Origin: Caldifarciminota bacterium
GTDB taxonomy: Bacteria; Hydrothermota; Hydrothermia; Hydrothermales; JAJRUZ01
Assembly (NCBI GenBank): GCA_024277525.1
Contig: JAJRUZ010000042.1
Span: 1 to 64,000 of the forward strand
Length of the DNA: 64,000 nt
Reading direction: 5' to 3'
The notes under the pieces were generated by a model. The model did no database searches, had not been told where the DNA came from, and saw nothing but the letters and a program-made list of their open reading frames with translations. A program made the translations under genes and the position numbers. How positions within the stretch are numbered: the first letter of the stretch is position 1; each line of letters opens with the position of its first letter. Positions 17,435-21,739 of the stretch are shown one piece after another.

Positions 17435-18160
17435 ATGGAATCAATCGTTCATAAAATCCTCAAAGATTTCAAATCAGGGAGTGAAGAGCTCCTTCTTACC
17501 TTTCTGAAAGGTGTTCTTACATCGCGAAAAAAAATCGAAAAGGATGAACTTTTAAAAGCCATTTCCAAAATTATTGAAGTGCATCCTTCAATGGCTGTAT
17601 TTTACCGATTAATGGAAGAAACGGTCAAAACACCGGAAGAAAATCTCAAAGATTTTCTTATAAACCTTACAAGAAAGGTAGAAGAAACACCGAAAAAAAT
17701 AGCACAGAAAGTTCACCCCTTGCTTAAGGATAAAAAATCCATCCTCATCCATTCGCGAAGTTCAACTGTAATAAAAGCTTTGAGAGAACTTAAAAAAAGA
17801 GAAGTTAATTTCAAAATTTTCTGCACAGAATCAAGACCCGGAGACGAAGGAAGGACAACTTTCAAGGAGTTAAAAAAAGCCGGATTTGAGACAGAACTGA
17901 TTCCTGATCTTTATGTAACAAAATTAAGTGATAACCTTGAAGCAATACTTTTCGGAGCAGATGGAGTTTATGAGAATAAAATAATAAATAAGGTCGGAAC
18001 ATATTCACTTGTATTGATAGGAAGGCATTTCGGTATTCCTACATTTTGTTTCACAAGCAGTTTAAAAATATCAAACAACCTGAAAAACCTGCCGAGAACA
18101 AATGAACTCTTTGAGGAAATTCCCTTGAATTTGGTGGATCATTTCATTACGGATGAGTGA
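17435..18160 (+). CDS. eIF-2B alpha/ribose-1,5-bisphosphate isomerase-like protein
   Basis: The 241-residue protein has a helical N-terminal region. An eIF-2B-type Rossmann domain follows: ILIHSRSSTVIKALRELKKR, then FCTESRPGDEGRTTFKELKKAG, then AILFGADGVYENKIINKVGTY and FGIPTFCFTSSLKI. The E-S-R-P-x2-E-G-R motif and the G-A-D-G-V motif are diagnostic. Bacterial members include sugar-phosphate isomerases, so a role in nucleotide or sugar salvage is as likely as one in translation. It lies just downstream of the tRNAs without an evident Shine-Dalgarno and overlaps trmFO by 8 nt. Confidence 0.75.
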   Translation: MESIVHKILKDFKSGSEELLLTFLKGVLTSRKKIEKDELLKAISKIIEVHPSMAVFYRLMEETVKTPEENLKDFLINLTRKVEETPKKIAQKVHPLLKDKKSILIHSRSSTVIKALRELKKREVNFKIFCTESRPGDEGRTTFKELKKAGFETELIPDLYVTKLSDNLEAILFGADGVYENKIINKVGTYSLVLIGRHFGIPTFCFTSSLKISNNLKNLPRTNELFEEIPLNLVDHFITDE

Positions 18161-19469
18161 AAAAATATATGTAATAGGCGGAGGATTAGCAGGAACAGAA
18201 GCAGCATGGCAGATTGCCAAAAGAGGAGAAAAGGTTATCCTTTATGAAAAAAGACCGGAAAAAACAACACCTGCACACAAAACTGGGTATCTTGCCGAAC
18301 TTGTTTGTTCAAATTCATTCAAATCCAAAGAGATAACTCATCCTCACGGTCTTTTAAAAGAAGAACTTAAAAAACTCGGATCAATTGTCATGGAAGCTGC
18401 TTTTAAATTTTCCCTACCAGGAGGAAAAGCACTCACAGTGGACAGGGAGAAATTTTCAAAATATTTAACCGAAAAAATTGAGTCCAATCCGGATATTGAA
18501 TTAAGAAGAGAAGAAATAAAAGAAATTCCACAGGATGGGATTGTGATAATTGCCACAGGTCCTTTAACCGGGGGAGAATTTGCCGAACAGATAAAAAAAT
18601 TAACAGGAAGCGATTTCTTTTATTTTTATGATGCTTTATCTCCTATTGTGGATGCGGAGACTCTTAATATGAAAAAATTGTTTTTTAAAGACAGACACGG
18701 CTGGGATGATATGGGATATTTGAATGCTGTGATGAGTGAAGATGAATATAAAAAATTCTGGGAGGCGCTTGTTAATGCCGAAATTCATGAGCCGAGGGAA
18801 TTTGAAAAAGAAATCAAATTTTTTGAAGGCTGTCTTCCGATTGAGGAAATGGCGAAAAGAGGATTTGATACTTTGAGATTCGGTCCTTTAAGACCTGATG
18901 GGATAATAGACCCTGAAAAAGGAAAAAAGCCCTTTGCATGTGTGCAGTTAAGAAGGGAAGATACGGAGGGAAGGGCATATTCACTTGTAGGATTTCAGAC
19001 CCAGCTCAAAATTAAAGAACAGGAAAGGGTTTTCAGGTTGATTCCCGGGCTTGAAAATGTAAAGTTTTTAAGATACGGAGCAGTACACAGAAATTCTTAT
19101 ATTCTGGGACCGAAATTTTTAAATCCTGATTTAAGTTTTAAAGGTAATCCAAAAATTTTCTTTGCAGGTCAAATTTCGGGAACAGAGGGTTATACAGAGG
19201 CAGTTGCAGGAGGGCTTGTTGCAGGAATTAATGCTTACATGCTGAAAAAATGGGGGAGAACAATTATATTTCCGAAGGAAACTGCAATAGGAGCCCTTAT
19301 TAATTATGTAACAAGTTCTGACCCGAAGAGATTTTCACCCATGAATATAAACCTCTCCCTTTTTCCTGATGTTCCGAGAATAAGAAACAGAAAAAGAAAG
19401 ATGAAATTCATAAGTGAAAGAAGTTTGGAAGTTCTTGAAGATTTTATTCAAAATGTATTAAAATTATAA
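18153..19469 (+). CDS. trmFO: tRNA (uracil-54-C5)-methyltransferase, folate/FAD-dependent
   Basis: The 438-residue protein opens with the FAD-binding GGGLAGTEAAWQIAKRG. YEKRPEKTTPAHKTGYLAEL and VCSNSFKS follow, and both are TrmFO hallmarks. FAGQISGTEGYTEAVAGGLVAGINA near residue 335 is the second conserved block. The enzyme uses methylene-tetrahydrofolate to make ribothymidine-54 in tRNA. Its position after tRNA genes and near two other RNA/folate genes (THUMP methyltransferase, formyl-THF cyclo-ligase) fits a translation and one-carbon cluster. Confidence 0.95.
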   Translation: MSEKIYVIGGGLAGTEAAWQIAKRGEKVILYEKRPEKTTPAHKTGYLAELVCSNSFKSKEITHPHGLLKEELKKLGSIVMEAAFKFSLPGGKALTVDREKFSKYLTEKIESNPDIELRREEIKEIPQDGIVIIATGPLTGGEFAEQIKKLTGSDFFYFYDALSPIVDAETLNMKKLFFKDRHGWDDMGYLNAVMSEDEYKKFWEALVNAEIHEPREFEKEIKFFEGCLPIEEMAKRGFDTLRFGPLRPDGIIDPEKGKKPFACVQLRREDTEGRAYSLVGFQTQLKIKEQERVFRLIPGLENVKFLRYGAVHRNSYILGPKFLNPDLSFKGNPKIFFAGQISGTEGYTEAVAGGLVAGINAYMLKKWGRTIIFPKETAIGALINYVTSSDPKRFSPMNINLSLFPDVPRIRNRKRKMKFISERSLEVLEDFIQNVLKL

Positions 19470-19540
19470 ATGAGCCGGGCTCCCTTTTTCGGTGACTTTG
19501 AGCTTTTAAAAGCAAGAAATTAAAAAAGGAGGGAGAAGAA

Positions 19541-19873
19541 ATGCTTAACTATGAAGAAAAAAACATAAGGGAACAAACACAAAAAAAGAACATTTTTGAT
19601 GAGAGGCACCCGGTGCACGGGAACCCTTATATTGTTATAAAAGCACAAGAAGACGGTGTTAGAGTCATGGGATTGACACGAGGAATGCAAACAAGGGTTT
19701 CACATACTGAAATTTTATCAAATGGAGAAGTGATAATATGTCAACTTACAGAATATACTGCTGCTTTTAAAATAGTTGGTAAAGCCCAGGTTATAACACC
19801 ATACGGAGAAATAATCGCAGAAGGAACCATACCCAGATTGAAAGAATTTAAAGAAAAAGTACCCGAATTTTAA
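19541..19873 (+). CDS. TRAP (MtrB) homologue, trp RNA-binding attenuation protein-like
   Basis: Residues 30-90 of this 110-residue protein align without gaps to Bacillus TRAP: YIVIKAQEDGVRVMGLTRG, then GEVIICQLTEYTAAFKIVGKA. With an offset of 21, the tryptophan-pocket positions Thr25, Thr30, Gln47, Thr49 and Thr52 correspond to Thr46, Thr51, Gln68, Thr70 and Thr73, all retained. Of the RNA-binding Lys37/Lys56/Arg58 triad only Lys56 (Lys77) is kept; the others are Ile58 and Val79. A charged N-terminal extension of about 28 residues and a C-terminal tail of about 20 are extra. It likely forms a tryptophan-binding ring, but RNA binding of the Bacillus type is doubtful. Start: ATG after AAGGAGGG (19526-19533). 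Confidence 0.8.
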   Translation: MLNYEEKNIREQTQKKNIFDERHPVHGNPYIVIKAQEDGVRVMGLTRGMQTRVSHTEILSNGEVIICQLTEYTAAFKIVGKAQVITPYGEIIAEGTIPRLKEFKEKVPEF

Positions 19874-19877
19874 TTAT

Positions 19878-21044
19878 TTGGAAATAACGGGGAGCCCGGC
19901 GCCCATAAACTTATACATTTCCACATCCATCGGTATTGAAGATATTACAAAAGAAGAAATCAAAGAAGTTTTAAAAGATAGGGAAATAAAGGTTAATCCT
20001 TTTGAATTCAGGGGAAAGATTTTTGTAAGAGATGTTAATTTAAAGGAAATACCGCATATTTTTTTCAAATTAAGAACGACTGAGAGAATCGGAATTCTTA
20101 CGGGTGTATTTGAATGTGATTTAAATAAATTAAAAAATTATGTCTTTTCTCTGAATATAAAGGATTTTTACAAAAAAAACCTTTCAATTGCTGTTAGGTG
20201 CAAAAAAAGAAATAACAAAATTAAACTTTCAAAACAAGAAATATCCGCGGAAATAGGAAAATGGCTGATTCGGAGAATAAGGGATGAGTTTGATTTTACT
20301 CCTTCTGTTAATCTTGAAGAGCCCGATTTTATATTGAGATGTGATATTTCCGAAAGATATATTACTTTCTGGCTTGATTTAACGGGTAATTCCGCAATGC
20401 ATATAAGGAAATACAGGGTTTTTGAGCATCCCGCACCCATAAAAGGAAATATTGCTTTTGCTCTGATAAAAAAGATGGGGATTAAAGAAAATAAAATTTT
20501 TGTTGACCCCATGACAGGCGGAGGAACAATTCCCATAGAGTGTGCAATGTGGGCAAAAAATATTTCTCCCTATCATTTAAGAAATGATTTTCTGATTTTT
20601 AAATTAAAACCCTTTGAAGATTTAAAAAAAGAAGATTTTATGAAGACAGGGGAAAGAGAGAAAAATTTAAAAATATTCGGTTCTGATATTAATCTTGAAT
20701 TTTTGAAAGGTGCAAAGGAAAATGCGAAAAGGGCGGGTGTTGAAGATTATGTAAAATTTATAAATCTTGATGCAAAGGATCTTTCAAAGGCATTCAAAAA
20801 AATAGATTATATTGCCTTTAACCCGCCTTACGGTTTGAGGATGAGAATCGGTGAGGAGGAAAAGGGAATAATGAAGAAATTTTTTGAGGAGGCGGAGAAG
20901 GTTTTATCCGATAAAGGGAAAATAGGTATAATAACCGCGAGGATGGATCTTGTGAGAAAACACAGAAGGGATTTCAGAATTATATGGAGAAGAAAAATCT
21001 TTCACGGAGGGGTGAGGATTTTCGGATTTATATTGAGGAAATGA
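19878..21044 (+). CDS. THUMP-domain class I SAM-dependent RNA methyltransferase (RlmL/Trm14-like)
   Basis: The protein of about 388 residues has an N-terminal THUMP region (residues about 10-160). A methyltransferase domain follows, with FVDPMTGGGTIPIECAMWA (SAM-binding motif I), IFGSDINLEFLKGAKENAKRAG (motif II) and IAFNPPYGLRMR (the N-P-P-Y of N2-guanine methyltransferases). The likely substrate is a guanine in rRNA or tRNA. The start is uncertain: TTG 19878 is the first candidate after the MtrB-like stop, and no clear Shine-Dalgarno is present. It overlaps the next gene in ATGA. Confidence 0.8.
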   Translation: MEITGSPAPINLYISTSIGIEDITKEEIKEVLKDREIKVNPFEFRGKIFVRDVNLKEIPHIFFKLRTTERIGILTGVFECDLNKLKNYVFSLNIKDFYKKNLSIAVRCKKRNNKIKLSKQEISAEIGKWLIRRIRDEFDFTPSVNLEEPDFILRCDISERYITFWLDLTGNSAMHIRKYRVFEHPAPIKGNIAFALIKKMGIKENKIFVDPMTGGGTIPIECAMWAKNISPYHLRNDFLIFKLKPFEDLKKEDFMKTGEREKNLKIFGSDINLEFLKGAKENAKRAGVEDYVKFINLDAKDLSKAFKKIDYIAFNPPYGLRMRIGEEEKGIMKKFFEEAEKVLSDKGKIGIITARMDLVRKHRRDFRIIWRRKIFHGGVRIFGFILRK

Positions 21045-21739
21045 ATAAAAAGCGGAAAATAAGGGAGAGAATATGGAAATTGATGGAGGAAAGGGGGGTG
21101 GTGAGGTTCCCGGGTGCCTTCGGAAGAATCCCGAATTTTGAGGGAGCGGAAAAGGCAGGGGAAAACTTATTTAAACTTGAAATATGGAAAAAGGCAAAAT
21201 TTATAAAATCAAATCCTGATTCACCTCAAAGAATAATAAGGGAGAGGGCTTTAATTGAGGGAAAGGTTGTTTATATGGCTGTTCCGAGATTAAGGGAACT
21301 CAAATGTTTTATAAAACTTGAGCCGGATAAAATCATGAATCCAAAATTTGCCTCCACGATAAAAGGTGCCTTCAGACTCGGTAAGCCCGTTCATCCTTCT
21401 GAGATTGAAAAAATTGATTTAATAATTGCCGGTTCTGTTGCGGTTAACATGAACGGTAAAAGGCTCGGTAAGGGAGGGGGATATTCTGACCTTGAATATG
21501 CAATAGGAAGGCATTTCGGTTTTATAAATGAGAATACCCCTGTTATAACAACTGTCCATGAGATTCAGATAATTGAGGAAGATATTCCTTTTTTGCTTCA
21601 TGATGTCCCGGTAGATTATATAATCACACCCCGAAGAGTAATAAAAACTTATGGGAATTTGAAAAAGCCCGAAAGGATTTACCCGGAGTTTCTTGATAAA
21701 GAAAAAATTAAAAAAATTCCGATTTTATCCATTATTTAA
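21041..21739 (+). CDS. 5-formyltetrahydrofolate cyclo-ligase family protein
   Basis: The protein of about 232 residues shows the family pattern: RERIWKLMEERGVVRFP at the N-terminus, IIRERALIEGKVVYMAVPRL, then LIIAGSVAVNMNGKRLGKGGGYSDLEYAI, in which G-K-G-x-G-Y-x-D is the ATP-phosphate signature. It converts 5-formyl-THF to methenyl-THF. The long form resembles archaeal and MTHFSD-type proteins. ATG 21041 overlaps the upstream stop and follows TTGAGGAA; a frame opening upstream at 20984 would overlap the methyltransferase by 61 nt and is rejected. Confidence 0.8.
   Translation: MNKKRKIRERIWKLMEERGVVRFPGAFGRIPNFEGAEKAGENLFKLEIWKKAKFIKSNPDSPQRIIRERALIEGKVVYMAVPRLRELKCFIKLEPDKIMNPKFASTIKGAFRLGKPVHPSEIEKIDLIIAGSVAVNMNGKRLGKGGGYSDLEYAIGRHFGFINENTPVITTVHEIQIIEEDIPFLLHDVPVDYIITPRRVIKTYGNLKKPERIYPEFLDKEKIKKIPILSII

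Follow-up and report, generated by a model that had tools for sequence, protein, structure and literature searches.

What does a TRAP ring do once the residues with which it reads RNA have been replaced? TRAP is a tryptophan sensor that normally shuts off the tryptophan-making genes by gripping their RNA, and it serves as a model of how a symmetric ring recognises RNA under the control of a ligand. The question is raised by a TRAP-like gene in a 64,000-nucleotide stretch of DNA (hereafter the window) from a Caldifarciminota bacterium (contig JAJRUZ010000042.1 of assembly GCA_024277525.1), a member of the order of Hydrothermus, which comprises heat-loving, mostly uncultured bacteria. An earlier note on this DNA proposed that the encoded protein keeps the tryptophan pocket while having lost two of three RNA-binding residues. 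Here, we describe the gene, its relatives and its surroundings, and we weigh what the ring might act on.

A TRAP homologue in the order of Hydrothermus

The ORF encodes a genuine TRAP/MtrB homologue and a member of the TRAP structural family, as the earlier note had claimed. Its 110-residue product matches the whole TrpBP domain (PF02081; 95.6 bits, E 1.7e-27), well above the cut-off of 21.3, and by sequence it matches the TRAP entries in the PDB (1wap, 8e-19). The gap-free alignment to Bacillus TRAP is likewise borne out over the core, with 53% identity. An AF2 monomer model built from a 28-sequence alignment has a core pLDDT of 93–97, and a Foldseek search with this model returned TRAP chains only, up to E 1e-3, the best being 1c9s (TMt 0.96, rmsd 0.7 A). 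The N- and C-terminal arms reported as new are indeed present, the C-terminal one being kept across the whole order and the N-terminal one within the family only; both fall in the low-confidence part of the model outside residues 29–93, where a helix at residues 4–14 is weakly predicted. These arms distinguish the protein from Bacillus TRAP. The gene is single-copy in the window's genome, and a search for viral relatives of the protein found none. The ORF misses the NCBIfam MtrB equivalog cut-off (NF009724; 95 vs 117 bits), and by this score, by its RNA-binding residues and by the outcome of the array searches (both below), it is not a member of the functional MtrB class.

Among 147 genomes examined from the phylum (WOR-3 / Hydrothermota / Caldifarciminota), TrpBP is carried by four, all in one order: the window's genome (G000), G002 and G003, which belong to the same family, and Hydrothermus pacificus JdFR-72 (G004; L009), which belongs to the same order. 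These and the other genome-wide results rest on family, pattern and profile searches. The TRAP-less genome G001 was left out of the evidence, since trmFO is absent from it too. In a 109-row tree, the four carriers form one clade (100/100), whose branch is by far the longest; the 64 columns do not resolve the branching further down. Among the three family members, dN/dS is 0.04–0.07 (dN 0.065–0.137, dS 1.6–2.0), values that are rough because dS is near saturation, and the gene is therefore not decayed. The TRAP-like genes of the order are an intact, vertically inherited TRAP subfamily.

The order IF-2B-like gene, trmFO, TRAP is common to all four species (Table 1), with an 8 bp overlap between trmFO and TRAP in G004. 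In several TRAP-less members of the class, xerC follows trmFO. The earlier description of tRNA-modification and folate genes as neighbours, with no trp genes among them, agrees with what we found, and adjacency to trmFO rather than to trp genes is a further difference from Bacillus TRAP. The product of the gene downstream of TRAP resembles archaeal Trm14 (260 bits, slightly below the equivalog cut-off of 280), and its family homology starts at residue 11, past the stem arm described below.

Table 1. Features around the TRAP-like gene (window coordinates)
Feature	Position	Strand	Remarks
IF-2B-like gene	17435..18160	+	5′ of trmFO in all four species
trmFO	18153..19469	+	Neighbour of TRAP on its 5′ side, conserved in the four species
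5′ stem arm (GCCGGGCTCCCT)	19474..19485	+	Complementary to 3′ arm; in trmFO–TRAP gap
TRAP-like gene	19541..19873	+	110 aa, ATG start, GGAGG upstream
Trm14-like THUMP tRNA methyltransferase	19878..21044	+	3′ of TRAP in the window's genome only
3′ stem arm (GGGGAGCCCGGC)	19889..19900	+	Just past TRAP stop; overlaps the next ORF's first codons if TTG 19878 is its start
5-formyltetrahydrofolate cyclo-ligase family gene	20984..21739	+	Immediately 3′ of TRAP in G003

Tryptophan pocket and RNA face

The Trp-pocket residues Thr25, Thr30, Gln47, Thr49 and Thr52 (Bacillus numbering) are retained in all four species of the order, which confirms and extends the first reading of the window's protein. Bacillus TRAP binds L-Trp with a Kd of 2.8–6.9 uM (PMC3435397). 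The alignment also confirms the replacements of Lys37 by Ile58 and of Arg58 by Val79 (window numbering). The homologue comparison that had been suggested as a check was run: the same Ile and Val are fixed in all four species, and no close homologue carries the Lys or Arg that would mark this copy as merely decayed. The count of two lost residues out of three is correct for Lys37 and Arg58 and understates the extent of the change, as F32V, H33S, D39S and H51Y are switched as well.

We call a core position switched when it is fixed to a residue other than the near-invariant one at that position. A comparison with 72 other distinct TRAPs yields seven such positions (I22M, F32V, H33S, K37I, D39S, H51Y and R58V); in addition, position 20 holds a private Arg, fixed in all four members of the order. 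Val32, Ser33, Ile37, Ser39, Tyr51 and Val58, which correspond to V53, S54, I58, S60, Y72 and V79 in the window's protein, are present in 4/4 carriers. Six residues were scored as base contacts (32, 36, 37, 39, 56 and 58), and four of them (32, 37, 39 and 58) are switched, while none of the Trp-pocket positions is (hypergeometric p for the switch on base contacts 8e-4, or 5e-3 when limited to conserved columns). Among the ~120 other TRAPs from Bacilli, Clostridia and Aerophobota, 119 have Lys37, and the same count applies to Asp39 and to Arg58; none of the four from the Hydrothermus order has any of the three. The Clostridia part of this sample consists of the 30 best-scoring members and is biased to typical ones. 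Judging from these sequences, the RNA face of TRAP is nearly invariant across the three groups.

The Bacillus-type complex has Phe32 stacked on G3, which also receives two hydrogen bonds from Glu36; Lys37 stacks on G1 and Asp39 gives G1 two hydrogen bonds, and Arg58 pairs with Glu42; Glu36, His34 and Lys56 contact one another with or without RNA, and G1 adds little to the affinity of Bacillus TRAP (PMC4854314). In the Hydrothermus-order TRAPs, neither the G1 site nor Arg58 is left, and the Glu36/His34/Lys56 cluster, invariant in the four species, is shared with Bacillus. Its retention means that some G recognition could remain; because the three residues interact independently of RNA, it may also be structural. 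Overall, the alignment supports well a retained Trp pocket together with a probable loss of (G/U)AG reading. Such a clade would separate the sensing and reading halves of TRAP and offer a test of whether the ring can be given a new specificity.

TRAP beyond Bacillus

TRAP is not a Bacillus oddity: it is carried by 11 of 17 Aerophobota and by 200 of 399 sampled genomes in the phylum of a genome titled Clostridia (bin_86, L072). The Aerophobota TRAPs, also non-Firmicutes, resemble those of the Hydrothermus order in having Ile or Val at position 32. They differ in keeping K37, D39, K56 and R58. Where the flank is long enough, most of their genes adjoin trpE, trpB2 or trpC/trpF-like genes. In L157, TRAP and trpE are separated by a NAG array of 10 repeats and by a terminator, and shorter NAG arrays are present in L158, L159, L160 and L162. 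Thus, the face is kept in Aerophobota along with arrays and trp linkage, whereas in Hydrothermales, where the face is replaced, neither was found. The Clostridia bin_86 TRAP shares Ile at position 37 with the Hydrothermus order; D39 and R58 are kept there, which makes it a single change and not one of the whole face.

Several further observations concern these relatives. In Aerophobota L156–L162, TRAP lies 5′ of trpE or trpB2, and the space between the genes holds (G/A/U)AG arrays and terminators; these are putative TRAP attenuators outside the Firmicutes. Five of the 11 Aerophobota TRAPs (L155, L160, L162–L164) have Ile or Val in place of Thr52 with the RNA face kept, a mirror image of Hydrothermales. 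TRAPs of the Clostridia phylum are often away from trp genes, those of L058 and L072 lying between dnaE and pfkA. The folE–mtrB region of L038 (titled Arthrobacter) groups with Sporosarcina in the tree, and this assembly is probably mislabelled or contaminated.

The trp pathway and (G/U)AG arrays

Neither a chorismate-binding enzyme (PF00425) nor TrpF (PF00697) was found in G000, G002 and G003 (95–96% complete), and the only trp remnant, present in G000 and G002, is a trpB2-like gene. The trp pathway is absent in three of the four TRAP-carrying species, the window's genome included, so that the protein would sense Trp in bacteria that do not synthesise it.

In the fourth, G004, the trpEGDCFBA operon is complete, and aro and tyrA genes come after it. 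Its leader encodes two tandem leader peptides, MKTLRLLKIYYWYFRKSGGLGVEI and MMMPGSLPLYYYWFIRRGGGPGIMG. To each belong a terminator ahead of a U run and a possible antiterminator (-28.6 and -27.9 kcal/mol). Both tandem units have the layout of ribosome-mediated attenuation by aromatic amino acids, which is the predicted control of this operon. Tyr/Trp/Phe control codons (IYYWYF, LYYYWF) stand ahead of the joint trp/aro/tyrA operon (L110 12650–13100, minus strand). No (G/U)AG array was found in this leader.

Run, density, all-triplet and profile scans of the four Hydrothermales genomes gave no credible (G/U)AG array. As controls, the run scan recovered an 11-repeat array in L084, and the profile, made from six Bacillus trp leaders and applied to 150 candidates per genome, found a TrpP-like transporter leader in two Bacillus genomes (E 0.004 and 0.014). 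Aerophobota also served as controls, and their arrays were recovered. The same profile gave nothing up to E 1 in G000, G003 and G004, an absence that is supportive and not conclusive in view of the weakness of the profile and the limit of 150 scored candidates per genome. The single sub-threshold match, in G002 (E 0.54), lies antisense inside a respiratory-complex-like ORF.

A stem bracketing the TRAP cistron

In G000, G002 and G003, the TRAP cistron is enclosed by complementary arms of 12–17 bp, for which RNAfold gives pair probabilities near 1 across ~400 nt. For each of 162 ORFs in eight Hydrothermales stretches, we took the 80 nt on either side and computed the strongest helix without interruption that the two flanks can form with each other. 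The three TRAP genes rank 1–3 (-37.0, -33.8 and -31.7 kcal/mol; next -16.6), in what is the cleaner test, yet one chosen after the stem was seen. When ranked by the total duplex energy of the flanks, they come 1, 6 and 9, a less clear result because neighbouring tRNAs inflate the energies. Across the three sequences, 93.3% of the cells of the arms are paired, against 30–60% in slid versions, and three pairs have changed on both sides; a shuffle control of the arms (35/500) is weak with three sequences only. The bracketing stem, which is new here, is thus a complementarity conserved in three species with compensatory changes, and it is an unusual, testable RNA element in itself. The only Rfam matches in the window are tRNAs.

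The arms are absent in G004, though TRAP sits at the same place there. Since that species lacks the stem, which is known from three sequences, the protein's role does not depend on it. The same armless gene bears on a reading of the arms as a DNA-level inverted repeat forming the ends of an invertible or mobile cassette, with no RNA stem. Arms of this length around a 400-bp segment have the form of such ends, and they would also stay alike through inversion. However, TRAP has an identical orientation in all three species and the departures from perfect pairing within the helices are G–U wobbles, so that we consider a DNA repeat unlikely. A dispersed repeat was also considered and rejected, as the other AGCCSGGYTC copies fall within unrelated ORFs, next to a tRNA or inside a TPP-riboswitch-like element, and the G004 gene has no arms.

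RNase III cuts the stems that flank rRNAs, and excision or protection of the TRAP mRNA in a similar way is a possible role of the TRAP stem, as are insulation and autoregulation. That the stem is connected with the protein at all is inferred.

What the ring may act on

With a probability of roughly 55%, we favour a Trp-gated ring with a rebuilt (G/U)AG belt that is off trp control and most likely acts on a different target. The protein would very likely still fold as a TRAP ring with L-tryptophan between its subunits. The belt that reads (G/U)AG appears to be rebuilt through F32V, H33S, K37I, D39S, H51Y, R58V and the Arg at position 20, so that classical TRAP sites should go unbound and trp biosynthesis should not be controlled. 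The ring would then act elsewhere, and the transcript of its own operon, with the stem-enclosed TRAP cistron, comes first among the candidates; the array searches of the four genomes and the neighbourhood yielded no target. A different job is made probable by the replaced and fixed RNA grip, the absence of the trp pathway in three of four species and the stem around the gene. The more elaborate proposal of a TRAP subfamily wholly outside trp regulation, Trp-gated, with new RNA or protein specificity, a cistron excised or insulated by the stem and possibly autoregulation, is tentative.

The rebuilt belt might instead be a protein-docking surface, as the residues that took over (V, S, I, S, V) are small and either neutral or hydrophobic, the C-terminal arm is kept across the order, and Anti-TRAP docks on this same RNA-face surface of TRAP (PMC11255114). 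We give this reading a modest chance, considering that no partner candidate was identified, that the Arg gained at position 20 could be used for RNA, and that the conserved stem enclosing the gene points, if only indirectly, to a role with RNA.

It is improbable, in our view, that the ring still binds (G/U)AG or NAG arrays via Glu36 and Lys56, more weakly or with altered spacing, at targets that were missed (e.g. a Trp transporter leader). The invariant Glu36, His34 and Lys56, the little weight of G1 for affinity in Bacillus (PMC4854314) and the Ile or Val already present at position 32 in array-bearing Aerophobota would all be compatible with it; Asp39, Lys37 and Arg58 are, however, all replaced and fixed, and the profile, run and all-triplet scans gave nothing credible. 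A decayed remnant that outlived the trp pathway, which is indeed missing in three of four species, is largely refuted, as the low dN/dS and the identical substitutions fixed in all four species, the Trp prototroph G004 included, rule out decay and the ORF is intact in every one of them.
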